Notes under the pieces: generated by a model
Database searches by the model: none
What the model was told of the DNA's origin: nothing
The model's input: the letters and a program-made list of their open reading frames with translations, nothing else
Shown here: positions 1-15,022 of the stretch, piece after piece
How positions within the stretch are numbered: the first letter of the stretch is position 1
Layout: each line of letters opens with the position of its first letter
Assembly: GCA_013041835.1 (NCBI GenBank)
Contig: JABDRH010000130.1
Span: 1-15,022 of the forward strand
DNA length: 15,022 nt
From: Desulfatitalea sp.
GTDB taxonomy: Bacteria; Desulfobacterota; Desulfobacteria; Desulfobacterales; Desulfosarcinaceae
Direction of reading: 5' to 3'
Translations under genes and position numbers: made by a program

Positions 1-105
1 CAAGCCTTCCTGCCCATGCCTTAAAAAACCCATCAAATAAGATCGTGCGTAGCACATCCTTTTATCTTCAATTACAATCCATCATCTATCTTGACTCTGT
101 TTCCA

Positions 106-367
106 TCAGTTATCGAGGCCACTCTCATTGATAAACCCTACTATCTGCGCCACTGAATACTTGGGCGGAATTGATATGAGTATGTGCACGTAGTCCTAAA
201 TGCCCTTCTATCACTTCGCATTGTCTGGCTCGTGCCAACTCCTTAAACACCTGCCCAAGATACTTATGAAGCTCGCCGTATAAGCTCCTTCGGCAACATT
301 TGGGAATCCAGACTATATGGTATTTGCATTCCTATCGGCTGTGGTTTAAAGTTGAATTATCGCACAT
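106..367 (-). pseudogene. Decayed IS200/IS605-family TnpA (HUH transposase) remnant
   Basis: IS200/IS605 TnpA is a small HUH/Y1 single-strand transposase. Reading down from the ATG at 367 (preceded by GGAGAGG), the family pattern is recognisable: HSR-stop-ECKYHIVWIPK, then LYGELHKYLGQVFKELARARQCEVIEGHL. A family Trp codon has become TAG at about residue 12. After GHL the homology jumps frame and resumes as DYVHILISIPPKYSVAQIVGF at about 195-133. The first His of the HUH pair is therefore Tyr (TAC for CAC). A stop follows at 106-108, and the usual C-terminal part with the catalytic Tyr is not recognisable. With a nonsense codon, a frameshift, a mutated active site and a lost C-terminus, the gene is inactive. 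It lies immediately downstream of the radical SAM gene that ends at 471. The family assignment rests on remembered family motifs. Confidence 0.82.
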
Positions 368-453
368 GATAGCCTCTCCTTTGTGAATTTGAGCGGTTCA
401 TAACTGGAAGGGCTTTCATTTGTTCCCGTAAATGTCAAACTCTGGTAGGTCTC

Positions 454-466
454 CCGGCAAAACCGG
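454..466. repeat. Small hairpin, possible IS200-type left end
   Basis: CCGG-CAAAA-CCGG forms a 4-bp stem with a 5-nt loop, about 85 nt upstream of the decayed TnpA start and 5 nt beyond the stop codon of the radical SAM gene at 471. IS200/IS605 elements carry subterminal hairpins recognised by TnpA, so this may be the remnant of the left end. There is no U-tract, so it is a poor intrinsic terminator. Positions 1-105 and the rest of 368-470 show nothing else recognisable. Confidence 0.35.
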
Positions 467-470
467 AATT

Positions 471-1499
471 TTACCCAAGGGCAATTACGTCTTCGTCTCC
501 TAAAGGCATGCGCTGTGATAAGAATCGATTGAGCGGATAGTACCATTTCCCCACACTGTAACCCTCCTTATCAGTACAGCGAGCACATAGTTTGATGTCG
601 TCAAGGGTTTGATCTCTGTGTGCCTGTCTAAGTCTGCATGCGGCCTCACTACTCCATAGTTCTCTTATAGACTGCTTACTTAGATTCCCAAGCACATAGA
701 GTCCGTCATAATCGAAACAACATGGCACGACTCGACCATCCCACAACACGGTCACTGAGGTCCAGGGCTTGTCGCAGACTACATTAGGCTCCGGCACTGA
801 ATCAATACGAAGATCGTTTATTCGGTCATCATGCCCGTCCCAAGAAACAAAGGTCTTAACCTTGACTACGTCTATTCCCTTGACTGTTTTCCATTTTGCT
901 AACCAAGAAGCGGTCTCATGTTGATTCATCTTCTGACGGACGAACTGCAAAATCAAGTAAGGCGTTTTCATGTTCCTTGCTTTCCGGTATTCCAAAAAGG
1001 AACGCACCTTTCTCTCAGCTTCTTCAACGTTAGAAGCTGCTCTGCCTCGGATGGCTTCACTTGTCGCGGCACTGACCCCATCGAGCGAAAGCACTAATTC
1101 ATAAAGACCGTAATCCACCAATTCGTGTATTCGATTGTTAGTTAATAAATTTGGATTCCCCGATAGATAAGTTTGCATTCCGTGCTTCCTTGCAAATTCA
1201 ATAAGTTCTCCAAGCTGTGGATGGATCAGGGAGTCACCGAAATGGTGGAGGAAAATCTTTGAGGAATATTGTGATACCTCACGAACGACGTGGCGAAAAA
1301 GCGTTGCGTCCATATACCCTATCGCTCGTGTCATACTTCTCGTCCTGGGGCACATTACGCAGGTCATGGGGCAGTCGTTAGTAAGTTCAATCTGGAATGC
1401 TTCGGGAGCTCCTTTGGGCTTGATGGTTTGCCAGTTGTAGGCTGCTTGATTGAGCTCTCGATTTAAGGTCAATCTCAGAAATCTGATCAAACGTTCCAA
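471..1499 (-). CDS. Radical SAM/SPASM protein
   Basis: Radical SAM enzyme with a C-terminal SPASM domain that would bind auxiliary Fe-S clusters; substrate unknown. The open frame runs up to an ATG at 1622, but that start would overlap the upstream gene by 88 nt. I prefer a downstream start near TTG 1499 (342 aa), behind GGTGAG, though this is uncertain. Counted from 1622, the SAM-cluster motif CPMTCVMC has C84, C88 and C91. A LHHFGDSLIHP segment (125-135) stands where GGEP is often found, as in many SPASM members. The SPASM region has CDKPW (C283), VVPCCFD (C301, C302) and LCARC (C346, C349). The family includes peptide-modifying and sugar-modifying enzymes. It is the last gene of the six-gene run and abuts IS debris, so its extreme C-terminus could have been altered by the insertion. 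Confidence 0.88.
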   Translation of the reverse strand: MERLIRFLRLTLNRELNQAAYNWQTIKPKGAPEAFQIELTNDCPMTCVMCPRTRSMTRAIGYMDATLFRHVVREVSQYSSKIFLHHFGDSLIHPQLGELIEFARKHGMQTYLSGNPNLLTNNRIHELVDYGLYELVLSLDGVSAATSEAIRGRAASNVEEAERKVRSFLEYRKARNMKTPYLILQFVRQKMNQHETASWLAKWKTVKGIDVVKVKTFVSWDGHDDRINDLRIDSVPEPNVVCDKPWTSVTVLWDGRVVPCCFDYDGLYVLGNLSKQSIRELWSSEAACRLRQAHRDQTLDDIKLCARCTDKEGYSVGKWYYPLNRFLSQRMPLGDEDVIALG

Positions 1500-1534
1500 A
1501 TTCTCACCATCCCTTTTCGACCACAAAAAGAAAT

Positions 1535-2983
1535 TTATTCTCTGGATACTAAGAAGGTCGCTGCTGCTGGATTCGCTGGATGTTTCCTCATTTTTTCTGC
1601 TACTAATGTATTTAAAGTACATGCCTTACAGGCCTCCATCTCACCATATGTCCACATTGAGAATTTATCCTGCTGGCACAAAAATTCATGAAGGGTAACC
1701 CTTTCCCTTATTTCCAATGACAATCTGATTGAGGTCGGCACCAACGTGGGGCAGGGATAAACCCAACCATTGTAGAGCCAGGGGGTTGGCCATCTACAAT
1801 CACCTGGCATTACACCATCTAACAGATAGCTCGGTAAAGAAATATGGTGAAGTTTATCAGTTACATGGTATTTGTACCGTTTAACAGTTGCCTTGGAATG
1901 AAGCATACTTAAATTTTCCCCATAATCCGAAACCATTATGGCGTCAGCGTATTCCTCCACAAGATCCATGTCACCTTCTTCGATTAAAGCCGTAGAAACT
2001 TGAATCCATTTGATTTGTGGACAATTTGATAGTATTGGTAGGTAAACTTGTAGATAAGTAGAAAGGAGTGGTTCACCTCCAGCTAATACCAGCCGGTCAA
2101 TAACAACTCTCTGACACTTTAAGGTCGTCACCAAATCTTCGGCCATTGAGGCGTCAAATTCATAGTTCGGATCTGTACTGCGGAGTGGTAGCTTGTCGCA
2201 GGAGTAACATCCTTTTTTGCAATGGCTGTTTGTATAGATCTCAAAAACAGGGATCCTGCCTGGCATCGACAAAGACAAGCATGAGGAAGATGTACCAATG
2301 AAGTCTGCACTTACTCTTGGGAAGTAGTGGTGATCATTGCCAACGGCAGAAGACCCAGCCTCTACACCAATGTGCTCAACCAAACTTGGAGTATGATAGT
2401 AGACCCGAAGCCCACTCTGTTCAGCCCAAAAACCGAGGACGCAGTCTGCACTATTCTTGTATTGATCAAAGTCAAGTGGCAATGCTTCCAAATCCAAGAG
2501 AAATCTGACAGCACTGGATCTCGGGAAGACATAGAATTGAGCCATGTAGGTGTCCACTCCCTGGCATATTACATTCCAACCATTGTTTTCTGCACGATAC
2601 TCTACTGGCGTGAAACACGAACAGTAGGCTGCGTCTTCGGGCCATAGTGATTTTTCCAAATAGCTCCTGAGATCTTTACAGCATACAATATCGTCCTCTG
2701 CGACTATATAAGCGTTTGCCGCTGGATAAAATCTAAGCAGAAACTTCAGCGTTCTCAAATAGTTCGCCAATGCTCCGAGGCGATACCCGGTGTCATAAAA
2801 TACATGAACAACGTCGAATCCAGCATTTGCCATACTGTCTATCGCTGTCCCCACCATGCTTTTGCCCTCTGGGCGCTCGCATGACAGCATGCCTACTGCC
2901 CATTGCCATGCAGGACCATTCAAGGTATTTTCAACTTCAGGCTTAAAATCACCCATTAATGTATTTATGCTCGACCCATCCAT
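1535..2983 (-). CDS. Glycosyltransferase-like / radical SAM fusion protein
   Basis: A 482-residue two-domain protein. Residues 1 to about 232 look like a GT-A glycosyltransferase: YIVAEDDIVC (acidic EDD at 96-98, a likely metal/nucleotide-sugar motif) and PSLVEHIG (H204), the kind of C-terminal His seen in GT-A enzymes. Residues about 240-482 form a radical SAM domain: CKKGCYSC (C255, C259, C262), then LAGGEPLL (GGEP 302-305). Later cysteines C396, C411, C436, C452 and C455 could bind a second cluster. The ATG at 2983 lies 18 nt after the GT9 gene. GAGGAG occurs upstream but about 14 nt away, and a second in-frame ATG is at 2956. The fusion suggests that one protein transfers a sugar and radically modifies the same product. 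Each domain is fairly clear, but the substrate is unknown. The frame is continuous across the junction with no sign of a sequencing join. Confidence 0.85.
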   Translation of the reverse strand: MDGSSINTLMGDFKPEVENTLNGPAWQWAVGMLSCERPEGKSMVGTAIDSMANAGFDVVHVFYDTGYRLGALANYLRTLKFLLRFYPAANAYIVAEDDIVCCKDLRSYLEKSLWPEDAAYCSCFTPVEYRAENNGWNVICQGVDTYMAQFYVFPRSSAVRFLLDLEALPLDFDQYKNSADCVLGFWAEQSGLRVYYHTPSLVEHIGVEAGSSAVGNDHHYFPRVSADFIGTSSSCLSLSMPGRIPVFEIYTNSHCKKGCYSCDKLPLRSTDPNYEFDASMAEDLVTTLKCQRVVIDRLVLAGGEPLLSTYLQVYLPILSNCPQIKWIQVSTALIEEGDMDLVEEYADAIMVSDYGENLSMLHSKATVKRYKYHVTDKLHHISLPSYLLDGVMPGDCRWPTPWLYNGWVYPCPTLVPTSIRLSLEIRERVTLHEFLCQQDKFSMWTYGEMEACKACTLNTLVAEKMRKHPANPAAATFLVSRE

Positions 2984-3001
2984 ATTTTACACGCATTCTC
3001 C

Positions 3002-4066
3002 TCAGCAGCACATTTCTTTAATAGCTTCGATCACATCTTCTACTTTTATCCTGAGTAGCCCCAAATCAGTAGCGGCACCGTAATTGTCACCACTCTTGCC
3101 AGCCCATAAAGTCTTATGTTGAGCATTTCCTGGTGGTGGCCCCCACCAGGCCGGTGAAACCGGACCGAATAACGTCACGGCTGGCCTTCGGAATGAGGTT
3201 GCCAGATGGGAAATACCGGTATCGACGCTGGCCACTAAACGGGCTCCTGCAACCAACCATGTAAGTTCTTGGACGTCAGTTCCGCAGCGGTTGCATTCTG
3301 CCGGTAAGCACGCGCGGCGTCGAACCTCGTTGACCATGGCTGCTTCAGGCCCACTACCAGTCAGAGCTATCCGGTGGCCCGTTGATTGAAGATGTAAAAC
3401 AACTTTGACCCAGCGATTGATTGGCCACAATCGTGAGGGGCTACCCGCCCCTATATGGACAACCGTGAAACCCTGGTGGCTGAGAGGCACGGCCAGTGTT
3501 GTATATAGGTCATCGTCGCACGGTTCAACGCATATTGTCTTAAGCAGACGCCGCCAACGGGTTAGGATGTGTTCAGTAAAATTTAGCTCAGGGGAATTCT
3601 CCGTCGCAGCTATTCCATCGTAGCGGTAGCTAACAAAAACGCGCGGCATTAGAGTGTTGATTAGCGGCACCAACTCAGATCCTGGGGTACGCAGCGAAAC
3701 GAGGACATCAGCTGATCGAATATTCGTCAATACGTTGGCAAGAAGCGCAGCATCGATCTGCTGGTGGCATGTGGGATCTCCCCCATTATCGCAACCAGAT
3801 TGTTGGCTGGGAATTTCAGACACAAGTTGATCAGCTGTACCAAAGAACTCAGCCAGTGGAACCAGCCAGGACGGGCATGTGACCACCAGCCGGTGCCGCG
3901 GGAAGCTTCTACGTAGGCCATGCAGGGAGGGTTGTGCCGTTACCAGATCCCCAAGTCCATGATGGCGTAACACAAGTAGTGTTGGTTTTGTTGAACCACC
4001 CATAATCGTATGTCGTTTTAAAGGTCGACTTAGACAGATCTCCACATTTCTGCACGGTCGTGCCAT
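3002..4066 (-). CDS. Glycosyltransferase family 9 (ADP-heptose:LPS heptosyltransferase-like)
   Basis: GT-B glycosyltransferase of the GT9/WaaC-WaaF type, which transfers heptose or related sugars from a nucleotide donor onto LPS core or other glycans at the inner membrane. Visible signatures are LLVLRHHGLGD (N-terminal glycine loop, GLGD at 37-40), VVHIGAGSPSRLWP (202-215, near the donor site), LTGSGPEAAMV (235-245), VDTGISHLA (281-289) and LFGPVSPAWWGP (299-310). These are typical GT9 landmarks, and 354 aa is the usual length. The ATG at 4066 is 6 nt after the previous stop. An alternative ATG at 4003 would place the N-terminus closer to the first beta strand; neither has a strong Shine-Dalgarno. 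It overlaps no neighbour and looks translationally coupled within the operon. The acceptor cannot be deduced. Confidence 0.87.
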   Translation of the reverse strand: MARPCRNVEICLSRPLKRHTIMGGSTKPTLLVLRHHGLGDLVTAQPSLHGLRRSFPRHRLVVTCPSWLVPLAEFFGTADQLVSEIPSQQSGCDNGGDPTCHQQIDAALLANVLTNIRSADVLVSLRTPGSELVPLINTLMPRVFVSYRYDGIAATENSPELNFTEHILTRWRRLLKTICVEPCDDDLYTTLAVPLSHQGFTVVHIGAGSPSRLWPINRWVKVVLHLQSTGHRIALTGSGPEAAMVNEVRRRACLPAECNRCGTDVQELTWLVAGARLVASVDTGISHLATSFRRPAVTLFGPVSPAWWGPPPGNAQHKTLWAGKSGDNYGAATDLGLLRIKVEDVIEAIKEMCC

Positions 4067-4072
4067 CCACTG

Positions 4073-5167
4073 TCATCGCATAGCATGATTGATCAAGCTT
4101 GCAACCTGTTCCGCTCCTCTAGTCCCGAGACCCGTCAGCGATTGGTCCAGAACACCTTTTTCTGGTACAGCATATAGCCCAGCCTGGATCATCTCAGAAA
4201 TCTCTGTCTTTGCCTGTACTGATGTTGCCGCGTCGCTTATCGATCGATATATATAGTTAAGCACGGCATCTTCACCATTGGAGCGTAGTTGCTCAATCCG
4301 TTCAGGATCTATAATGCTAGTAGGCCACGCCATCAATGGCGCATCAGGCGATGAAAATAATTGCATGTTGAAGTATTGACTAAGATTTTGTGGCGGAAGC
4401 AACATGGTTGGCAGCCCTATTGTTAAAGCCTGAAGGATAGTTGTGCTGCCCGGAGATGTTATTAGTAAATCCGCTCTTATTAATAACACCTCGAAGTCAT
4501 AAGGGGAATGACGGCCAATGGCCGGGCAATCTGGTAACAGATTGTTAAGTTGCCGGCAAATATTTTCCGGAAGATTTCCGCAAACCGCATAAACTGCATA
4601 ATTCAAATCTTTCAAAATATTAACAAGAGGTATTAAGACCAAGTCAATATAGTCTTCAATAGTGTTACCCGCAAGATGGGAATGAAGGCCACCGAGATTG
4701 ATGACCACACCATTTCCGCCCCTGTGATCAGTTAGATTTGGAACGATGGGATCTATCCAATGGATCTCGTGCCAATCCCGTATCGGGTCAGACACTTGCA
4801 TTCGGTGAAAGGGAAATTTCTGCGCACAATAATGGGCAATTTTGTGGCGTATGGGGACCTCTTCTTCTGTTGCCCATAAATAAGGCAAACTGTCAACATA
4901 TATGACAGAGATTCCAAAATCTGCAACCCGGTTGGCAGCATTCGGATCATTTATCACCAAGGCAACATTCGATTTCTTATACGGCCGGTCCACAAACCTA
5001 TGACGGGAACTCAATAGCTCGGTAACAGTAGCATTTATATCCGCACAGCCATAAAGGACGATATCAGTCGTAGGGAGCTTGTCCAAGATAAGGCGGAATT
5101 TCCCCAGACTTCCCCATCCGAAGTCACAAACCGAGGCAAGCAATGTTTGCCTGTTGCTATTTGTCAT
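4073..5167 (-). CDS. GT-B glycosyltransferase resembling cytosylglucuronate synthase (BlsD/MilC-like)
   Basis: A 364-residue GT-B-type protein. The N-terminal loop SVCDFGWGSLGKF (12-24) and the C-terminal half, with NLGGLHS (157-163), a MurG-like SPGSTTILQAL (238-248) and GLPTMLLPPQNLSQYFN (251-267), fit nucleotide-sugar transferases of the MurG/PseG type. The glycine-rich GWGSLGK start recalls the cytosylglucuronate (CGA) synthase-related family, which joins UDP-glucuronate to cytosine in blasticidin and mildiomycin synthesis. That narrower assignment is from memory and unverified. The start is well set: AAGGTG lies 5 nt before ATG 5167 and overlaps the stop of the aminotransferase gene, so the two are probably coupled. 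The flanking radical SAM and DegT genes strengthen a nucleoside-sugar reading. A flippase-independent polysaccharide transferase remains possible. Confidence 0.7.
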   Translation of the reverse strand: MTNSNRQTLLASVCDFGWGSLGKFRLILDKLPTTDIVLYGCADINATVTELLSSRHRFVDRPYKKSNVALVINDPNAANRVADFGISVIYVDSLPYLWATEEEVPIRHKIAHYCAQKFPFHRMQVSDPIRDWHEIHWIDPIVPNLTDHRGGNGVVINLGGLHSHLAGNTIEDYIDLVLIPLVNILKDLNYAVYAVCGNLPENICRQLNNLLPDCPAIGRHSPYDFEVLLIRADLLITSPGSTTILQALTIGLPTMLLPPQNLSQYFNMQLFSSPDAPLMAWPTSIIDPERIEQLRSNGEDAVLNYIYRSISDAATSVQAKTEISEMIQAGLYAVPEKGVLDQSLTGLGTRGAEQVASLINHAMR

Positions 5168-5176
5168 GTTTGCACC

Positions 5177-6397
5177 TTACTTCTTGGGAGGAGCTGGAGA
5201 ACAGAAATGACGCCATACTTTTAATAGAGCAGCACCGGATACCCGTGCTTCGTCTTCAGGCAGATATGGGCCTGTTTCTATTTCGAACAGCTGCGGGTAT
5301 ATCACAGCTACTGTTGGGCATCCATCAGCACCACGGTAAGCACCTTTCTCCTTTAAATATTCTGCCAACCACGGTATGCTATAAAGTGGACGATGTGGGA
5401 TACGACAACTGATATTCTCGGTAGAAATAGCGTCTACGATCTTCTGCCGCTCTGAGGTGAAATGAGTTGGTAGCAACACAGGACATTTAAAAAAAACACT
5501 TTTGCCCCATGTCGGTTCTTGGACAACATCCAGCTCAGTGTCCCGCAATAGTTCTCTATAGTATGATCCCGCTTTGCTCCTAGCTTGGATTTCAAGATCA
5601 AGACGGCTTAGTCCGTCCAGGGCTATAATAGCCTGGAATTCGGCCATTCGATAGTTGTATCCTATCGAAAAGTAGTCATCCCAACCTGGACCTTTTCCAT
5701 AATTTGACAACCTGCGGATGTGCTCATAGCTATCCTTGTTACTGCACAGAACTATGCCACCTTCTCCGCAGGCTATATGTTTTCGTACGGAAAAGGCGAA
5801 AGTGGCATAATCGCCGAAATTACCGACTTTGCGGCCATGTGCTGGCGCACCCAATGCCTGTGCGCAATCTTCTATCAATGCAAGCCCATGTCGGTCGCAC
5901 AACTCCCTGAGCGCTGCTACATTAGTGGGATATCCCCAGAAATGCACCACAAGGATAGCCTTTGTGCGACTACTGATCAGGCTCTCAGCCTTCGCGATGT
6001 CCATGGTCAAGGTTTTAGGCTCTGCATCGCAAATCACTGGAATGCCGCCATTTTGCACAACTGCCGTTGCAGCTGCGACAAAGCATAAGGCCGGTACTAT
6101 TACCTCGTCTCCGGGACCAACATTGGCTGCTGTAACAGCCAAGTGCAAAGCACTGGTGCCTGAATTAACAGCAATAGCATAATACTCGGGACCGTGAAAC
6201 TTGGCAAATTCCTCCTCAAATTGCCGTGCCCATGGGCCGTTGTGGTAATTCGATAATTGGCCGCAATCGAGAAGTGCATTCACCCTGTCACGCGCATGAT
6301 CGGAGATCAGAACCCCTGTTTCGATAGGCTGAGGTCGAGTGGGCGAGCCCCCAAATATCGCTAAATCATTAGTGCTACTTATCTTTTGATCATTCAT
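5177..6397 (-). CDS. DegT/DnrJ/EryC1/StrS-family PLP aminotransferase
   Basis: PLP-dependent sugar aminotransferase of the DegT/StrS family, which converts a keto-sugar, usually nucleotide-linked, to an amino-sugar using glutamate or glutamine. The frame is open to 6442, but ATG 6397 is preceded by AGAGGAA at about 10 nt and avoids overlap with the upstream radical SAM gene, giving 406 aa, a normal family length. In that numbering, NSGTSALHLA (78-87) binds the PLP phosphate, IEDCAQALGA contains the ring-contacting Asp177, and FSVRKHIACGEGG holds Schiff-base Lys206, so it is an aminotransferase rather than a Lys-lacking dehydratase. It sits 32 nt after the radical SAM gene and 9 nt before the GT-B gene. 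BlsH/MilD-type enzymes of nucleoside pathways belong to this superfamily, but so do many O-antigen enzymes. Confidence 0.92.
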   Translation of the reverse strand: MNDQKISSTNDLAIFGGSPTRPQPIETGVLISDHARDRVNALLDCGQLSNYHNGPWARQFEEEFAKFHGPEYYAIAVNSGTSALHLAVTAANVGPGDEVIVPALCFVAAATAVVQNGGIPVICDAEPKTLTMDIAKAESLISSRTKAILVVHFWGYPTNVAALRELCDRHGLALIEDCAQALGAPAHGRKVGNFGDYATFAFSVRKHIACGEGGIVLCSNKDSYEHIRRLSNYGKGPGWDDYFSIGYNYRMAEFQAIIALDGLSRLDLEIQARSKAGSYYRELLRDTELDVVQEPTWGKSVFFKCPVLLPTHFTSERQKIVDAISTENISCRIPHRPLYSIPWLAEYLKEKGAYRGADGCPTVAVIYPQLFEIETGPYLPEDEARVSGAALLKVWRHFCSPAPPKK

Positions 6398-6429
6398 ATC
6401 ATTACAATTCCTCTTTCTAATTACGGGTG

Positions 6430-7428
6430 TTAGAACTGCCAAAGGTCGACATTTCCTGTCAGGGCGACTTGATCACTATAACCTGCGGCTGTGGTAGAGC
6501 AACTACGGCACCGTTTATAGCCTTCCAAACGAAACTGGTTTACATGATCATGGAATTCAGTGACATCAAGGGTCCAACCGTCTTTAGTGCGCATCCTAAC
6601 ACCACCACCGGATTCTTCTGCGTTACGATGTGGCAGCAAACTGCAACCGAAGCCTAATCCAGCCTTGGCATCTAAATAGAGAGCATCTCCCACTAAATGG
6701 CATTGCGGTGGACTGGGACGAGGGGAGATTCCAAATTTAAAATATAAATCCTGCTCCAGCAATGTATCACCGTAGAATCGCTTGCCCATAGGTACCAGCA
6801 TTGATCCATTATTAGCCTCATAAATTGGTTCACAGACTGAAAGGACATGATCACGATCAGGGTATGTAACCCGCTGCTCAAGCTTAATAGCTGAAAGCTC
6901 CCACTGCTGGACTCCAAGCTTGCTCAACCTTTTTTGCAATCGCGGCATTTCCGTATAATTATGGGGACCCACCACTGTGTTTACGCGAGTCAACACCCCT
7001 TTATTCAGCGCCGATTCTATTCCAACCATGCATTTGCCAAAAATCCCCGGAACATTGCGATATGAATCGTGCGTGTCAGCAGATGCTCCATCAATACTGA
7101 CAATAACCTGTGCTAACCCGACCTCTGATAATTGGCCAATCAGTTTTGGAAGCAAATAACCATTAGTAATTAATGACATTTTCATGTTATCCGCTGCGCC
7201 AAGAGAGATGAGTCTCGTAACATCATTGTGTAAAAGTGGTTCACCACCTGTAAAGCGTACAACCTCGACTCCCATCGCATGGGCTTGTGATAGGATAATT
7301 TTAAACTCTCCAATCGTAATACGATATGAATCACGTGATTGACGATAGCCACACATGAAGCAACCAGCGTTGCATGCTTCAAGAATTCGGATAAAAAGAT
7401 AACGTTTTCTGGCTGTTAACTTTTTCAT
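6430..7428 (-). CDS. Radical SAM enzyme with twitch/SPASM-like C-terminus (BlsE/MilG-like candidate)
   Basis: A 332-residue radical SAM enzyme. LFIRILEACNAGCFMC starts almost at the N-terminus and carries the cluster cysteines C19, C23 and C26. RFTGGEPLLH (GGEP 61-64), SLITNGYLLP (85-94), VIVSIDGAS (108-116) and VNTVVGPHNYTEMP (149-162) follow the radical SAM barrel strands. Four later cysteines (C243, C262, C307, C310, the last pair as CRSC) could hold an auxiliary cluster. The short N-terminus and overall layout recall cytosylglucuronate decarboxylases such as BlsE; this is an unverified recollection, but it agrees with the neighbouring genes. ATG 7428 lies 4 nt after the rlmB stop, with no clear Shine-Dalgarno of its own, so translation is probably coupled to rlmB. 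Other radical SAM epimerases, dehydrogenases or maturases cannot be excluded. Confidence 0.9.
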   Translation of the reverse strand: MKKLTARKRYLFIRILEACNAGCFMCGYRQSRDSYRITIGEFKIILSQAHAMGVEVVRFTGGEPLLHNDVTRLISLGAADNMKMSLITNGYLLPKLIGQLSEVGLAQVIVSIDGASADTHDSYRNVPGIFGKCMVGIESALNKGVLTRVNTVVGPHNYTEMPRLQKRLSKLGVQQWELSAIKLEQRVTYPDRDHVLSVCEPIYEANNGSMLVPMGKRFYGDTLLEQDLYFKFGISPRPSPPQCHLVGDALYLDAKAGLGFGCSLLPHRNAEESGGGVRMRTKDGWTLDVTEFHDHVNQFRLEGYKRCRSCSTTAAGYSDQVALTGNVDLWQF

Positions 7429-7432
7429 TTTT

Positions 7433-8155
7433 TTATTTTAATCGAAAAATTTCTGACATTGCTATCGATGCGGCTACAGCTGCATTGAGGCTCTCCACCC
7501 CTTTTATTCCCCCTGGAATACGAACTAACTCATCACAATTTATCCGAGTTTTCCTCCGTAAACCCTGGCCCTCTGCTCCCACAACAAATACTGTTTTCTC
7601 TGCAAATTCAGTCTCTGCTAATGTTTTTTGACCTCGCTCATCCAAACCATAAGCCCAAAAGCCCATTGATTTTAATTCATTAAGCGTTCGTGATAGATTG
7701 ATTACAGTAAACACTTTGACAAATTCAGCGCCTCCCACGGCGTATCGTACTACGGTTTGGCTTAAATCAGCAGCGCGGTTACGCGTAGTGATAATCCCGT
7801 CCACACCGAAAAATGCGGCACTTCTAATAATGGTGGCAAAATTCTGAGGATTTGAGATTTGATCTACTGCAAATATGCAACGACCGGTTTTCAGAAGGTC
7901 TAGATCTTTCTCGTTATAAGTCGGGCGTGGTTTAACGAGAATGAGAATTCCCTGATGTTTATCATGCTCTTCAAATTCCCCCAATCTGCGGAATTCTGGC
8001 CAGGAAAGAAATTCATAGTTGATCCCGTTGCGGCGGGCGAGGTCAATGAATTCCTTATGGTATTCTATTTTACCGGCAATAACCATACGACGAATATCAT
8101 CTGGGCGAGTTAAAAAAACGGCCCTTACTGAATGCTTTCCAAAAATTTTTTCCAT
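7433..8155 (-). CDS. rlmB: 23S rRNA (guanosine-2'-O)-methyltransferase RlmB (SpoU/TrmH family)
   Basis: SPOUT-class methyltransferase that makes Gm2251 (E. coli numbering) in the P-loop of 23S rRNA. All three SpoU motifs are visible: motif 1 DQISNPQNFATIIRSAAFFG (98-117, with N102 and catalytic R111), motif 2 FVVGAEGQGLR leading to VRIPG (190-215), and motif 3 VESLNAAVAASIAMSE (220-235). The N-terminal stretch of about 75 residues beginning EKIFGKHSV is the L30e-like substrate-binding domain, which favours RlmB over TrmH. At 240 aa it is slightly short for the family (about 245-270) but complete. ATG 8155 has only a weak ribosome-binding site. It lies 178 nt after efp and 4 nt before the radical SAM gene, so the biosynthetic genes are probably co-transcribed with it. 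A paralogue such as TrmH is a less likely alternative. Confidence 0.9.
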   Translation of the reverse strand: MEKIFGKHSVRAVFLTRPDDIRRMVIAGKIEYHKEFIDLARRNGINYEFLSWPEFRRLGEFEEHDKHQGILILVKPRPTYNEKDLDLLKTGRCIFAVDQISNPQNFATIIRSAAFFGVDGIITTRNRAADLSQTVVRYAVGGAEFVKVFTVINLSRTLNELKSMGFWAYGLDERGQKTLAETEFAEKTVFVVGAEGQGLRRKTRINCDELVRIPGGIKGVESLNAAVAASIAMSEIFRLK

Positions 8156-8333: not shown

Positions 8334-8897
8334 CTATTCTTTAACACGGGTTATATACTCCCCTGAACGTGTATCTATTTGAATTTTATTTCCTTTTTCA
8401 ACAAAGGGAGGTACCTGAAGCTTATATCCAGTTTCCACAGTAACCAATTTTGAATCCGTGCTGGAGGTATCACCTTTAATCCACGGATCAGCTAATATCA
8501 CCTCCAAGTTGACAAAATTAGGGAGGCTTATGTCAATAGGTCGGTTATCAAATAGAAGGACCTGTACTTCCATATTGTCAACCAAATAATTCACATGCTC
8601 TCCAAGTTGATCATTTGTAAGAAAGACTTGGTCATAAGATTTATTATCCATGAAGTAATATTCGCCGTTCTGTTCATATAGGTACTGCATTGAACGTTCT
8701 TCGAGATCAGGTTTTTCAAACTTATCATTTGAACGGAAGGTTTCGTTATACTGATTCCCATTTATCATATTGCGCATCTTGCAGCGATACAGGGCTTGTC
8801 CCTTGCCTGGTTTATAGAATTCAAAGTCGGTAATAATGTATGGCTCTCCATTAATCAGGATCTTCAATCCCTTTCTGAGGTCCGAATGTGTATACAT
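8334..8897 (-). CDS. efp: Elongation factor P
   Basis: EF-P binds between the ribosomal P and E sites and relieves stalling at polyproline stretches. The 187-residue length and three-domain pattern are typical: an N-terminal KOW-like domain opening YTHSDLRKGLKI, a central OB domain with RSNDKFEKPDLEERSMQYLY, and a C-terminal OB domain ending VPPFVEKGNKIQIDTRSGEY. The tip loop FYKPGKGQA carries Lys32, equivalent to the modified Lys34 of E. coli, so a lysine-type modification is possible; no epmA or epmB lies in this window. ATG 8897 has a strong AAGGAAGG Shine-Dalgarno about 7 nt upstream. It is followed 178 nt later by rlmB and preceded by the truncated phage module across an AT-rich gap of about 270 nt. 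Confidence 0.96.
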   Translation of the reverse strand: MYTHSDLRKGLKILINGEPYIITDFEFYKPGKGQALYRCKMRNMINGNQYNETFRSNDKFEKPDLEERSMQYLYEQNGEYYFMDNKSYDQVFLTNDQLGEHVNYLVDNMEVQVLLFDNRPIDISLPNFVNLEVILADPWIKGDTSSTDSKLVTVETGYKLQVPPFVEKGNKIQIDTRSGEYITRVKE

Positions 8898-9169: not shown

Positions 9170-9658
9170 CTATATTTTCACAGATCTTAATGCCTCACGA
9201 AAATTTTCAATTATCTGAGTCCTGTATTTTTCCATGACCGGGTGAAGGAACGGCCGTGGCGGGATGATGATGGTCGCACCGTTCGGGTGTTTGATCGTGG
9301 CCCCGTATTCCATGACAGCCCCGATGTTAACCATATCCTCACCGTCCCTATTGACCGTGCCGCGTAGAAGCCCAACGAATGCCCTTTCAGCCATGATCTT
9401 CTGGGTGATGGCATGGATGAGAAAGCCGGTATCGATTAGGGCCTTGCTGGAACCCTTGCGTGCGATGGTGCTCTCGGCAAGCTTCACAAAGGCTTGGCCG
9501 CCGGGAGATTGTGAACGGATGCCGCGTTGGATTTCTCGAACGAGAAACAGAGCGTTGCGGATGGTCGCCTGGCGCAGGGCATTGGCCAGACGAGGCGCCA
9601 GGCCAGCGCTCAACATAGCGCGGGCCTTGTCCCAGTCACCGGTGCGCTTAACGCCCAT
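9170..9658 (-). CDS. HK97 gp10-like / virion morphogenesis (tail completion) protein
   Basis: A 162-residue phage protein of the HK97-gp10/virion-morphogenesis type, which acts at the head-tail interface. The recognisable core is ALIDTGFLIHAITQKI (about residues 72-87), then VNIGAVMEYGATIKH, and the hallmark IPPRPFLHPVMEKY near the C-terminus. The frame is open further up to 9721, but those 21 residues would lie inside the preceding gene and look non-native (rich in Ser/Pro/Arg). ATG 9658 gives an 11-nt overlap with the upstream gene, in keeping with the other overlaps of this module. It is the last phage gene before the chromosomal DNA. A major tail protein gene would normally follow but does not. 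Confidence 0.8.
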   Translation of the reverse strand: MGVKRTGDWDKARAMLSAGLAPRLANALRQATIRNALFLVREIQRGIRSQSPGGQAFVKLAESTIARKGSSKALIDTGFLIHAITQKIMAERAFVGLLRGTVNRDGEDMVNIGAVMEYGATIKHPNGATIIIPPRPFLHPVMEKYRTQIIENFREALRSVKI

Positions 9659-10007
9659 GGAGTTTGACCAACTGGAGGATCTTGTGGGTAACGGCCCCGA
9701 AAAAGTGGGCCGCTTCGACACTTTGAATTTTATAAGTGCCGCTGTCTGTTACCAGCCTGTCTTCTCCCAAGACGTCGGCATCAGGCAGCGCATCGGCCAC
9801 CGCATCGATCTTTCCCGAGAGTTCTTCAGGTGGGGTTTCATCCAATTCCAACGGGATTTCGGCTATATCGCTGTAGGTAGCGTCATCGGAGCCATACAGC
9901 CGCTCGCCGGGTACCATGCGCTGAACCACGGCCGTCTGACCTGAAGCAAGAATCAGCCACGCCAAGTCAGCCACGGCTTGGGTTTTTTCTCGCTCGGTCA
10001 GCAACAT
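9648..10007 (-). CDS. Phage head-tail joining (neck) protein, putative
   Basis: A 119-residue acidic protein. The N-terminal half is helical (LLTEREKTQAVADLAWLILASGQ), followed by an acidic proline-containing middle, and the end TYKIQSVEAAHFFGAVTHKI fits a beta-rich closure domain. Size and position, between a connector-like gene and the gp10-like gene, match head-closure or head-tail joining proteins, which are poorly conserved in sequence; the call is mainly positional. ATG 10007 overlaps the upstream stop by 10 nt (ATGTTGCTGA), and its own stop overlaps the next gene by 11 nt, so translation is likely coupled on both sides. Confidence 0.6.
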   Translation of the reverse strand: MLLTEREKTQAVADLAWLILASGQTAVVQRMVPGERLYGSDDATYSDIAEIPLELDETPPEELSGKIDAVADALPDADVLGEDRLVTDSGTYKIQSVEAAHFFGAVTHKILQLVKLHGR

Positions 10008-10462
10008 CGGCGACGTTTTCCCTGCCCATAGATCAACGGGGACAAATTACTGGGGGTAATTATATAGGACTCTTCATCGATTTGAGTTTCCGGCCGCAAT
10101 TCGCCCAGCTGCTCACGATAGTCAGCCAGCAGGTCGGCTTCCAGTTTGGCCCAATGGCCGGGTTGGCTGGTCTTGTCCACGCGTTTGTCGCCACTGGAAA
10201 ATGAAAACGCGTTGGCGCTGGCAGCGCGCATCACCTGGCAGGCATGAACCTGGGATAGGATAATCATCAGTTCGCGCACGGCATCCTCAGGTGTCGGCAG
10301 GATCCTGCTGTTGCTACGGATAACAAAGTCAATCTGCAGGTCTTTCCCTACGCGGAAAACGGCCTTGCGGGCGCATCTTTCCAGAGTCAGATCCTCGAAA
10401 AGTGCTGCACCTGAATCCGATAGGTCCAGGCGTAGGTCGGCGATCAAATCAGTGAGCAGCAC
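9998..10462 (-). CDS. Phage head-tail connector/adaptor-like protein, putative
   Basis: A 154-residue mostly alpha-helical protein. It begins LLTDLIADLRLDLSDSG, continues with LTLERCARKAVFRVGKDL and a helix-rich centre, and ends in a basic RRR-Cys-Cys tail. The layout of N-terminal helices followed by a helical bundle, and its place after the capsid gene, suit gp6-like adaptors that dock on the portal. I do not recognise the sequence with certainty. The start codon is GTG at 10462, chosen because GGAGG lies 9 nt upstream. It overlaps the preceding gene by 14 nt. The C-terminal Cys-Cys pair is unusual but unexplained. Confidence 0.62.
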   Translation of the reverse strand: MLLTDLIADLRLDLSDSGAALFEDLTLERCARKAVFRVGKDLQIDFVIRSNSRILPTPEDAVRELMIILSQVHACQVMRAASANAFSFSSGDKRVDKTSQPGHWAKLEADLLADYREQLGELRPETQIDEESYIITPSNLSPLIYGQGKRRRCC

Positions 10463-10811
10463 CTTGTAGATCCTCCAGGCGGTTTTTGAGCGCGTCGATC
10501 ACCGTCCGGCGCTTTTCGGTCTCCAATTGGCCTTTGAGCATATCCGGGTCGGCCTCGGCGTTGACCCGTGAGATGGCCTCCGTCGCTGAAAGCTTGCTCA
10601 GGTCCACTGCACTGGATTCCGTGTCAGGGTCCTTGACGTTTTTTTGATCCGCAGGTTCATTGGGGTCGACGGAAGTCAGGTATCCTTTTTTCAAGGCCGA
10701 TTCGATCTGCTGGGTGGCCCTTTCTATATCAACCGCTTGGCCGGGTTTTAATTTGAGGCCGGCATCAGGTATGACCAGGATGCCGGGCCGGATGTTTTTG
10801 ATGGTAAGCAT
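10449..10811 (-). CDS. Small phage head-region protein of unknown function
   Basis: A 120-residue protein with two parts. Residues 1-47 look like a small beta domain (IRPGILVIPDAGLKLKPGQ), a style common in phage proteins that follow the capsid gene. A charged linker (about 48-65) leads to a helical tail containing ATEAISRVNAEADPDMLKGQ and EKRRTVIDALKNRLEDL; short helices of this kind recur in phage head proteins, where they may mediate assembly contacts. I cannot name a family. ATG 10811 has AAGGAGAG about 8 nt upstream. It sits between the major capsid gene (20 nt after it) and the connector-like gene (14-nt overlap). Confidence 0.7.
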   Translation of the reverse strand: MLTIKNIRPGILVIPDAGLKLKPGQAVDIERATQQIESALKKGYLTSVDPNEPADQKNVKDPDTESSAVDLSKLSATEAISRVNAEADPDMLKGQLETEKRRTVIDALKNRLEDLQGAAH

Positions 10812-10831
10812 GAGCGATCTCTCCTTATATA

Positions 10832-11695
10832 TTACGGTACCAATTTTACCTTGGCCAGGATGTCCGGCCGGGTGATCCCCTGGCCGATTTCCGACCAGAC
10901 CAGCCAGCCGGTCTTGAAACGGGTCTTCTGGTCGATGGATTCGGTTTTCAGGTTTTCACGCACCGGCAGCTTGCCGACCTCCTCATCGGGTACGATAATG
11001 ATCTCATCCATGGGCATTGCGGCCGTGAGCAGAATCCCTCCAGTGCCGTAGTTCTTGATGACCCCTTTCTGGCGCAGTTCAAGCTTTGTCTGGGGGTCCA
11101 GGTTCCAATTACGCAGGTCGTTGAATCGCCGACCGCGCATGACGATGTATTTCACTGAAAGCTCCAGGTCCTCGATGATGGAGATGGCCTCGTTGAGGGC
11201 TTCCTCGGTGACTTTGTCACCAGTCACTTCCACGGTGTTGATGACCGGAATGGCCGAGGAGATCACCGTAACGGTGCGCCGGTCCATCTCTTTGCGGATA
11301 GCGCCGGCAGCTCCGGTCTGGATGTCCATCAGGGTGCCGATGTTGCCGTGCTTAAGCACGGAGATGTCCACCATAGGGTTGGAGTGGATGCGGTTGGTTG
11401 GAAACTCGACTTCATCCTTGCCCACTTCCTGCTCTTGGGCTTCGCCCTCTTTGCTGATCCAGTGGGCTTTGACGGTCGGCTTTTTCTGGTAAACCGGTCG
11501 CTCGCCCTTGGGCAGGGTATGCCGGGTGAGCAGCAGCGAGGAGATCTCTTTTCTTTTGATCTCCTGTTCGATGGGTGCCGCAATGGCCGCAGCCAGCGCG
11601 CGCATACCTTCGGGCGACTCGAGCGCCTCGCTCATCAGCCGCGCCATGGTTTCCATGTATTCCTGGGAATGGATATTGATCGGGTTGGTTTTCAT
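10832..11695 (-). CDS. Phage major capsid protein (HK97-fold)
   Basis: Main shell protein of the phage head. It is 287 aa from ATG 11695, which I prefer over ATG 11701 because AAGGAG lies 9 nt before it but only 3 nt before the other. An N-terminal helical arm (about residues 12-60, MEDLARL-like helices ending KRKEISSLLL) leads into TLPKGERPVYQKKPTVKAHW, and the centre has ISVLKHGNIGTLMDIQTGA. The C-terminal half contains YIVMRGRRFNDLRNWNLD, typical of the capsid A/P domains, and AAMPMDEIIIVPDEEVGKLPV. It is short for an HK97-type capsid, with no large pre-cleaved delta domain, consistent with a separate scaffold upstream. It follows the decoration gene directly, the standard order in lambda-like and SPP1-like heads. 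Confidence 0.85.
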   Translation of the reverse strand: MKTNPINIHSQEYMETMARLMSEALESPEGMRALAAAIAAPIEQEIKRKEISSLLLTRHTLPKGERPVYQKKPTVKAHWISKEGEAQEQEVGKDEVEFPTNRIHSNPMVDISVLKHGNIGTLMDIQTGAAGAIRKEMDRRTVTVISSAIPVINTVEVTGDKVTEEALNEAISIIEDLELSVKYIVMRGRRFNDLRNWNLDPQTKLELRQKGVIKNYGTGGILLTAAMPMDEIIIVPDEEVGKLPVRENLKTESIDQKTRFKTGWLVWSEIGQGITRPDILAKVKLVP

Positions 11696-11704
11696 GTGCA
11701 TGGG

Positions 11705-11710
11705 CTCCTT
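11705..11710 (-). promoter_or_regulatory. Shine-Dalgarno deciding the capsid start
   Basis: AAGGAG (minus strand) sits 9 nt before ATG 11695 and only 3 nt before ATG 11701. The spacing favours the second ATG as the capsid start. Confidence 0.6.
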
Positions 11711-11713
11711 GGG

Positions 11714-12076
11714 TTAGATGAGAAGGCGGAACTTGAGGATGCCGCCTGAAACTGAAACGGCCTGGGCGATGACCTGGTCATTAGATCCGCCACCGTTGGT
11801 CAGGCGTCCGTTGGCCGAGACTACCAGGTCGTCACCGGCACTGATTGTGCCTTCGAAAACGTCGGTTTCATAGACACCGCCGTCGCAGTAAATACCGGGC
11901 ATCTCGCCGGAGGCGTAATTCGTGATCAGGATGCCGAACGAGCGCAGGCCGGGATCGGTGTTAACGGTGAACAAGTCGTCGCCGGCCACCCGGACCACCT
12001 GGCCAAGCTGCCCGTCGCCCTGGATGTGACCGTCACCGTAGGCCAGACCCCGGTGACACGGATTGATGAATGCCAT
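11714..12076 (-). CDS. Phage head decoration-like protein
   Basis: A 120-residue protein rich in glycine and beta-strand-forming residues, with little helix. It opens MAFINPCHRGLAYGDGH, continues GQLGQVVRVAGDDLFTV and ends VSVSGGILKFRLLI. Size, composition and place between protease/scaffold and major capsid fit gpD-like or DUF2190-like decoration proteins that stabilise the expanded capsid. The start is secure: AAGGAGG lies 7 nt upstream and overlaps the stop of the scaffold gene (12089), so the two are probably coupled. Function is inferred from position and fold propensity, not from a diagnostic motif. Confidence 0.68.
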   Translation of the reverse strand: MAFINPCHRGLAYGDGHIQGDGQLGQVVRVAGDDLFTVNTDPGLRSFGILITNYASGEMPGIYCDGGVYETDVFEGTISAGDDLVVSANGRLTNGGGSNDQVIAQAVSVSGGILKFRLLI

Positions 12077-12088
12077 GTTGTTTCCTCC

Positions 12089-12697
12089 TTATGCGTCGAG
12101 TTGCAGGGTTTCGTTAGATTCTTCGCCCACACGGTTGCGGTAGGCCGCCATGAAGCCACTGCGCAGCCGGTCCTCCAGTGAGAGCTTGCGGTCGTCAACG
12201 TCACGGGGGCGGACCGAATGCGGAACGCGGAATGTGGAATGCGGATTATTTAAATCGGCTTTCTGCGCCATGGCATCGGCATCGGCGGGTTTGCCCTCGT
12301 CCTTGGGTTTGTCCGGTTCTTTCTTTGTTCCGCGTTCCGCATTCCGCATTCCGAGTTCGAAGGCGGCTTCGGTGGCAGCAAAGGCCTCGTCGGTCATTTC
12401 GGACAGGCGCTTGAGCTCGCTTTCACGTTCCTCGTCGCTGCCGAAGGCAAGGCCCTTTTTCTCCAGTTTGGTCAAAAGCTTTTTAGCCCGGGAACGGCAG
12501 GCTGCAGCCTTCTGCTCAGTCTCTAGCTCGTCAATGCGCTTTTGCAGTTGGGCCACCTGGGCCTTGAGCTGGCGGTTTTCCTTTTCAAGTTCGGTTACGC
12601 GCGCTGCCGGATCGCCGTCTTGGGATTCCGGCTTTTTCTTGGCTGCATCCGTGTCGGACTTAGACGGATCATCGTTGGTCTTGGTTTTGTCTTCCAT
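12089..12697 (-). CDS. Internal in-frame scaffolding protein (nested start)
   Basis: A 202-residue product of the last third of the methyltransferase/protease/scaffold gene, begun at an internal ATG in the same frame. AAAAGGAG is placed 8 nt before ATG 12697, a better ribosome-binding site than the gene's own start has. The product is acidic and lysine-rich, with a predicted coiled coil (TELEKENRQLKAQVAQLQK) and helical repeats, but lacks the protease and methyltransferase domains. It ends with LEDRLRSGFMAAYRNR, a likely capsid-contact segment. By analogy with lambda Nu3, it would be the bulk scaffold around which the capsid assembles. The Shine-Dalgarno is seen directly; the role is inferred. 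Confidence 0.72.
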   Translation of the reverse strand: MEDKTKTNDDPSKSDTDAAKKKPESQDGDPAARVTELEKENRQLKAQVAQLQKRIDELETEQKAAACRSRAKKLLTKLEKKGLAFGSDEERESELKRLSEMTDEAFAATEAAFELGMRNAERGTKKEPDKPKDEGKPADADAMAQKADLNNPHSTFRVPHSVRPRDVDDRKLSLEDRLRSGFMAAYRNRVGEESNETLQLDA

Positions 12698-14521: not shown

Positions 14522-14617
14522 CAATGTCTCCGGTAAGGTTACTGTGCCCGCCAAAACAGGGAGACGGGCTTTGGACGATTACTTACCGGGGTGGTCGGCA
14601 ATGTGTCGGAAAAGGTC

Positions 14618-15022
14618 TCAGATTTTCTTCAGCCGATCAGGTTCTACGATCGGCAGTACGCAACAGCGGCAGAAAGGATGAGCCGGAAGTTGGGGAAATT
14701 TATCTATGGAATACTTCTTTCCGTCCAATGGTCCGCACACCGGACAGGTCCGCTCGTCGGCCATGGTCATCCACTCCAGTTTTTCGATACCGACTTGCTG
14801 GTGGAATTTGAGCCGGCCCATGTTGTGAGCGCGCAGCACCTCGGTGCGGGCGATCATCTCCATGCGATACTGGGCCTTACTGAACACCCGGGTGCCGGCA
14901 TGGCGGAACGAGTCCTTGTAGATCACCACGTGGCCCAAATCGCGGACGATGTCGTCGGTTCCCTTGCCCTGGACGATACCCTGCATGATGACCCGCTTGA
15001 TGCCGTCGGAAAGTTCCCGCTG
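14618..15022 (-). CDS. Phage minor head protein, Mu F / SPP1 gp7 family (5' end beyond the window)
   Basis: The C-terminal 134 residues of a head-morphogenesis protein; the frame stays open to the window edge, so the start lies outside. Proteins of this family are minor capsid components that act near the portal in early head assembly, and they are sometimes fused to or placed after the portal. The diagnostic C-terminal pattern is present: ARTEVLRAHNMGRL, then ERTCPVCGPLDGKKY, then AHPFCRCCVLPIV, a Cys/His cluster that may bind zinc. Upstream of this in phage genomes come portal and terminase genes, expected beyond 15022. It is followed after 96 nt by the methyltransferase/protease/scaffold gene. 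Confidence 0.9.
   Translation of the reverse strand, partial: QRELSDGIKRVIMQGIVQGKGTDDIVRDLGHVVIYKDSFRHAGTRVFSKAQYRMEMIARTEVLRAHNMGRLKFHQQVGIEKLEWMTMADERTCPVCGPLDGKKYSIDKFPQLPAHPFCRCCVLPIVEPDRLKKI

Follow-up and report, generated by a model that had tools for sequence, protein, structure and literature searches.

The closest described relatives of the locus reported here are the blasticidin (bls) and mildiomycin (mil) clusters of Streptomyces and Streptoverticillium. In the latter, MilC joins a base to UDP-glucuronate, and the subsequent steps are attributed, as a supposition, to MilG and to MilD, a DegT enzyme (PMC11784345). Relatives of BlsD/MilC, BlsE/MilG and MilD, whose roles are described in PMC3715490 and PMC11784345, are encoded on the 15,022-nt contig JABDRH010000130.1 of Desulfatitalea sp. 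(assembly GCA_013041835.1), hereafter the window, within a tightly spaced minus-strand operon. The most interesting feature of this cluster is a linked gene for an RlmB-type rRNA methyltransferase. We read the whole as a horizontally acquired operon that would produce a nucleoside derived from cytosylglucuronate (CGA), probably a ribosome inhibitor, with built-in self-protection, and we place the probability of this reading at roughly 60%.

In the draft genome G000 (4.32 Mb, 86.9% complete), probably a metagenome-assembled one to judge from its 693 contigs, the window corresponds to contig C608; the other contigs are likewise given C-numbers. CGAS denotes a CGA synthase or a relative of it, and the island comprises the genes from RlmB to the last radical SAM/SPASM gene together with that of elongation factor P (EF-P). 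Read along the minus strand, the order is EF-P, RlmB, BlsE-like, DegT, CGAS-like, GT9, a glycosyltransferase (GT)/radical-SAM fusion and radical SAM/SPASM. EF-P lies 178 nt upstream of RlmB, and the gaps from RlmB through the SPASM gene measure 4, 32, 9, 6, 18 and 8 nt. These values depend on two starts chosen by hand, ATG 6397 for DegT and TTG 1526 for the SPASM gene, the latter by comparison with a homologue in locus L006 (see below); the mechanical open reading frames (ORFs) begin at 6442 (TTG) and 1622, respectively, and overlap their neighbours. The original prediction, made from the sequence of the window, had described six same-strand genes between positions 471 and 7428. The six ORFs are confirmed, all on that one (minus) strand, and the families claimed hold up, less firmly for the fusion; the head of the operon, RlmB, located 4 nt upstream of blsE, had been missed.

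Nucleoside core and conserved neighbourhoods

With a BlsE-type enzyme, a CGAS relative and a DegT enzyme encoded between them, the core of the blasticidin and mildiomycin pathways is present. The BlsE-type protein reached 448 bits against TIGR04466, above the curated equivalog cut-off of 400, and aligned with the solved BlsE (7VOB/7VOC) over its whole length (406 bits, residues 5-332), which bears out the kinship with BlsE/MilG. BlsE is, in the newer view, a diol dehydratase, and we propose that the window enzyme acts on CGA. It retains the CX3CX2C (Cys19/23/26) and GGEP (at residue 61) motifs, both required for BlsE activity (PMC3715490).

The best NCBIfam family of the GT-B glycosyltransferase is TIGR04467, at 182 bits for a curated cut-off of 300, so that its earlier designation as CGA-synthase-like holds for the family and has to be narrowed to a divergent relative. 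Six of its own relatives scored between 185 and 218 bits (P0002, P0029, P0094, P0119 and the proteins of loci L005 and L006, the L005 protein being identical to P0094), and a protein of Streptomyces coeruleorubidus scored 490. Fifty-one residues are invariant across a 10-row alignment that includes two Streptomycetaceae CGAS (L009 and L010), and the best sequence match in the PDB had an E-value of 0.045. The predicted role of this GT-B enzyme is the coupling of UDP-glucuronate to free cytosine. A protein search returned 289 CGAS relatives at E ≤ 1e-5, the best 120 of which were listed; in the tree, 81 rows form a clade (e.g. P0025, P0027 and P0030), some members of which carry a short insertion after the GG motif.

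A scan of genome contigs yielded seven loci. L005 (Plantactinospora mayteni, NZ_BONX01000001.1) carries BlsE, DegT and CGAS contiguously and in the order of the window (56, 55 and 46% identity). L006, from a metagenome-assembled genome (MAG) of Lysobacterales (Bin_30_3_3, genome G451), has BlsE, DegT, CGAS and GT9 in order (48, 58, 42 and 40%), followed 3.3 kb past GT9, and 4.3 kb from CGAS, by an RlmB gene (54%) that overlaps a SPASM gene (55%; L006 16329-17360). A single 21-kb stretch of this locus thus carries counterparts of six of the eight island genes, at 40-58% identity. The DegT protein of the window is 55-58% identical to those adjoining BlsE in both loci. At the remaining five loci CGAS was found at 25-32% identity (tblastn); in L009 (Streptacidiphilus sp. 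4-A2) the BlsE homologue matches in three adjacent pieces at 13545-14481 and is possibly frameshifted or gapped. The gene order sought in other genomes is found in L005 and L006 and, with the BlsE score and the best family of the GT-B enzyme, it supports the earlier suggestion that the first three genes described could make an aminosugar nucleoside.

The two loci also differ from the window: L005 encodes another DegT and, in addition, a PF05014 protein, a GHMP kinase, an oxidoreductase and a HAD protein; L006 has an extra SurE nucleotidase, an ORF without a Pfam match and heptose-activation-like genes, and its 21-kb stretch contains no match to the GT/radical-SAM fusion or to EF-P. Compared with the bls and mil clusters, the window cluster has two more radical SAM proteins, a GT9 enzyme and a GT-like domain; it has no match to the CMP hydrolase (MilB) family, and none of the eight island proteins is related to the products of the genes for the arginine side chain. 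The CMP hydrolase family, PF05014, is found outside L005 within L009 and L010, as judged by coordinates.

The linked RlmB-type methyltransferase

The window RlmB scored 177 bits against TIGR00186 (curated cut-off 160), and its GAEGQGLR and ESLNAAVA segments align to the SPOUT motifs of E. coli RlmB. The L006 protein scored 141 bits, under the cut-off. G000 holds two matches to the window RlmB, namely itself and C663 (31% identical). Matches were found in 39 of 40 genomes of the host and its kin (own included), none of which, besides the window copy, exceeded 114 bits. A tree of 153 rows, built by a quick method and rooted at its midpoint, included the best 120 of 861 RlmB relatives found. It grouped the window RlmB, the L006 RlmB and 119 other listed relatives in a clade of 121, the other 32 rows being C663, 29 RlmB-like proteins of host kin, a second G451 protein and E. 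coli RlmB; the L006 RlmB sits on a long branch, which makes its placement unsure. Judged by these scores and by the tree, the window RlmB is a second, foreign copy.

The linkage of this methyltransferase to CGAS probably extends beyond L006. Among the best 120 of 289 CGAS and of 861 RlmB relatives, contig sizes of 20892, 25996 and 37707 nt are common to both sets (protein pairs P0002/P0127, P0012/P0126 and P0056/P0166, respectively), with at least one shared source; also shared are the 15022 nt of the window itself and 1963 nt, too short to count on. The matches listed comprise 48 (CGAS) and 46 (RlmB) distinct contig sizes of at least 7 kb, and when the RlmB sizes were jittered by up to 10%, 0.04 matches were expected, with a maximum of 2 in 2000 trials. 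RlmB is thus probably encoded on three more CGAS contigs, as judged indirectly from equal sizes. In the CGAS tree the window protein forms a clade with P0002, P0003 and P0012 (98% support), and P0002 and P0012 are size-matched to RlmB.

Two samples were centred on G451, whose own matches are hence not independent finds. Nine of 398 genomes of its phylum match RlmB at E ≤ 1e-35, G451 alone having the island type (263 bits; next 130), and the CGAS alignment, run against 398 genomes of the order, found six with a match at E ≤ 0.001, G451 alone having a strong one (432 bits; the others about 20). Both the island type of RlmB and CGAS are rare outside G451 in these samples.

A role for the methyltransferase is suggested by the binding of blasticidin S, whose cytosine usually forms a Watson-Crick pair with G2251 (PMC10945559). 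RlmB modifies G2251 in the P-loop, and its SPOUT relatives AviRb, Tsr and NHR confer antibiotic resistance (PMC12123411), while rRNA methyltransferases are encoded in the producer clusters of erythromycin, lincomycin, evernimicin and avilamycin (PMC6804068). Because the cytosine pairs with the very nucleotide that RlmB methylates, the island enzyme is best read as a candidate for target-site self-resistance. AviRb and Tsr/NHR resemble it as SpoU-family 23S rRNA 2'-O-methyltransferases giving resistance to ribosome-targeting drugs; they differ in their sites, U2479 and A1067, and in the drug classes concerned (PMC12123411). The island enzyme scores as a member of the RlmB (P-loop) family.

Later genes, EF-P and origin of the island

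From the gene content, scores, composition and second copies of RlmB and EF-P that we observe, we infer reactions, a product, a target and a mode of resistance. The GT-B enzyme would couple a free pyrimidine base, most likely cytosine, with UDP-glucuronate; the BlsE-type enzyme would remodel the glucuronate through radical chemistry, and the DegT enzyme would introduce an amino group. One or more sugars would then be attached by GT9, perhaps from ADP-heptose, and by the GT/radical-SAM fusion, and the SPASM enzyme would oxidise or epimerise one of them. The RlmB-type enzyme would spare the producer by 2'-O-methylating a 23S rRNA nucleotide at the expected binding site of the cytosine, the P-loop, or close to it.

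Of the three radical SAM proteins originally proposed, the fusion protein has a weaker assignment than the others. Its C-terminal half keeps CX3CX2C (at residue 255) and GGEP (at 302) and scores 18 bits against Radical_SAM, under the cut-off of 29.5, while its GT-A-like N-terminal half matches no Pfam family at E ≤ 1. The fusion is rare, with two other homologues at E ≤ 1e-5, one of which (P0123) matches 43% of the query; by eye, P0123 combines a GT-like domain akin to that N-terminal half with a second domain of another kind behind it, which resembles a methyltransferase. As for GT9, its use of ADP-heptose is a possibility only. Heptose kinase/adenylyltransferase-like genes lie beside the L006 cluster, and they hold the only TIGR02199 match of that genome and so may be its lipopolysaccharide (LPS) genes; G000 has its own TIGR02199 match away from the island, at C348.

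The window EF-P (TIGR00038, 247 bits) is 52-56% identical to seven EF-Ps of the genus and family, including the host copy at C160, which are 77-89% alike among themselves; on these identities it is a second, foreign copy. Its linkage to the cluster was seen once, on this contig. EF-P binds adjoining the P-site tRNA, and a protective role would therefore be possible.

Several features indicate that the cluster was apparently acquired horizontally. The GC content of the island genes is 0.38-0.53, compared with 0.50-0.60 in 11 of the 19 host contigs sampled. In a set of 60 genomes that includes the host, no genome but the host's gave a strong CGAS match, and two more reached 21-23 bits. All 395 genomes of the phylum and all 14 controls contain a radical SAM match at E ≤ 0.001, so that only the cut-off is informative for BlsE, and it is exceeded in one of the 395, again the window's own. 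In plasmids, CGAS matched four records at 27-30% identity (genera Kitasatospora, Rhodococcus, Streptomyces and Embleya), and RlmB matched 94 records, all below 60% identity, of which the 20 listed were at 32-34% and several are chromosomes by size. The CGAS alignment gave 33 pattern matches and no relative in viral contigs.

The island borders phage DNA (Table 1). Positions 9170-15022 carry head and connector genes (PHROGs), are 72-79% identical in nucleotides to stretches of two genomes of the same genus (G002 and G003) and find some match in nine members of a set of 40 genomes that includes the host. Behind the connector gene G002 has, by eye, tail genes, and it is at this point that the island starts in the window. 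The island would thus sit inside a truncated prophage of host type or directly beside it, unless the contig is chimeric. At 14610-14664 the flanking phage parts are about 4.6 kb apart in G002 and G003, which points to an internal deletion or a misassembly. Positions 12089-14554 form a single 821-aa phage ORF with a D12 DNA adenine methyltransferase and a full-length match to phrog_27806 (DNA methyltransferase), and with a weak prohead-protease-like part (16 bits, under the cut-off). At the opposite end of the contig, a 44-aa piece of the decayed stretch has no Pfam match. A search for dsrA (TIGR02064) gave no match in the 86.9% complete G000, which leaves a sulfate-reducing host unsupported.

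Table 1. Features of the window, with coordinates and strand
Feature	Coordinates	Strand	Evidence or remark
EF-P gene	8334..8897	-	Upstream neighbour; cluster membership uncertain
RlmB-type SPOUT 23S rRNA 2'-O-methyltransferase	7433..8155	-	First gene of the tightly spaced operon
BlsE-type radical SAM enzyme	6430..7428	-	TIGR04466
DegT/StrS pyridoxal phosphate (PLP) enzyme, in place of MilD	5177..6397	-	PF01041, 302 bits
CGAS-like GT-B glycosyltransferase	4073..5167	-	TIGR04467
GT9 (heptosyltransferase family) glycosyltransferase	3002..4066	-	PF01075, 70.5 bits
GT-A-like domain (by eye) fused to radical SAM domain	1535..2983	-	Motifs
Radical SAM/SPASM enzyme	471..1526	-	PF13186, 63.8 bits; PF04055, 36.1 bits
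Decayed stretch at contig end, probable IS200/IS605 transposase remnant (by eye)	1..470	-
Prophage fragment of host-genus type, next to the island and outside the pathway	9170..15022	-

Competing explanations and implications

A number of observations weigh against a self-protected nucleoside pathway. The RlmB-like protein of C663 presumably already methylates G2251 in the host; a second methylation would then protect nothing new, and to be useful the island enzyme would have to modify a different nucleotide, or work at a time or place that the host enzyme leaves uncovered. An rRNA methyltransferase in a nucleoside cluster was not found in the available parts of the literature, nor was RlmB or EF-P tied to such a cluster, most subscription journals lying outside the coverage. 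PMC5572114 describes leucine acylation as a means of self-resistance to blasticidin S and names blsL as the only gene for a methyltransferase in that cluster, and the producer of the nucleoside A201A protects itself with an ABCF protein (PMC10201436). The linkage has its own gaps, in that 44 of the 47 other listed CGAS contigs of at least 7 kb have no listed RlmB relative of equal size, P0003 (1.68 Mb), among the three nearest CGAS relatives, is not size-matched, and the L005 cluster stretch has no such RlmB. On the side of the pathway, the absence of a BlsM/MilB-type CMP hydrolase from the window was correctly noted and extends to G000 as a whole (PF05014, no match at E ≤ 0.001, at 86.9% completeness); ordinary metabolism might supply the free base, or another acceptor might be used. 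The score below the TIGR04467 cut-off places the GT-B enzyme on a divergent CGAS branch and not with the curated equivalogs, so that its base acceptor could differ as well. It had also been stated that the cluster lacks transport and resistance genes: a Pfam scan of the eight island proteins indeed revealed no transporter, whereas the RlmB gene heading the operon is a plausible, putative resistance gene.

It is conceivable, if unlikely, that the nucleoside pathway is real and that RlmB and EF-P are passengers of the transferred block without a protective function. The second RlmB of the host and the many CGAS contigs without an equal-sized RlmB would fit, as would EF-P, linked at 178 nt on one contig and without a match in the L005 and L006 stretches. 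This is countered by the 4 nt that separate RlmB from blsE, by the recurrence of this RlmB type near CGAS in L006 and, by equal size, on three contigs, and by its restriction above 114 bits to the window's own genome among the 40 of the host and its kin. We regard as rather improbable that the low-GC part is a misassembled or misbinned piece in which another organism's housekeeping RlmB and EF-P flank the cluster. The GC contrast with the host contigs, the foreignness of EF-P and RlmB to the genus and the coincidence of the junction with the end of homology to the relatives' prophages are compatible with such an error; the other half of the contig nevertheless matches same-genus stretches at 72-79%, the GC shift fits horizontal transfer too, and the recurrence of the gene set in L006 makes the cluster itself independent of binning. 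There is little likelihood that the genes serve to build LPS or exopolysaccharide, as a surface glycan with a uronic acid or an amino sugar among its units, and that the GT-B enzyme is a lipid- or sugar-acceptor transferase. GT9 belongs to the heptosyltransferase family, which also fits a surface glycan and counts against the nucleoside, CGAS is under its cut-off, and the heptose genes with the sole TIGR02199 match of their genome adjoin the L006 cluster. Against a glycan stand a BlsE above its equivalog cut-off and the linkage to RlmB, which would be unexpected for a glycan; the scan of the eight island proteins also turned up no polymerase, no flippase and no lipid-linked transferase.

The reading that we retain is that of a horizontally acquired nucleoside operon with self-protection. 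Its extension is more speculative, with chances well below even: sugar-decorated, perhaps heptosylated, CGA nucleoside antibiotics may constitute a new class in bacteria mostly known from metagenomes (one being the Lysobacterales MAG), in which a dedicated RlmB-like enzyme would give protection by 2'-O-methylation of the P-loop or of a contacting nucleotide, and a dedicated EF-P would possibly help by holding the end of the P-site tRNA in position. The curated CGAS cut-off, for its part, misses a clade whose BlsE-DegT-CGAS neighbourhoods are conserved, as read at two loci, L005 and L006. If our reading is true, an rRNA target-site methyltransferase tied to CGA clusters would represent a strategy unlike the leucine acylation of blasticidin S; it would hint at what the compound binds ahead of any knowledge of the compound itself, and it would provide a marker for such clusters in metagenomes.

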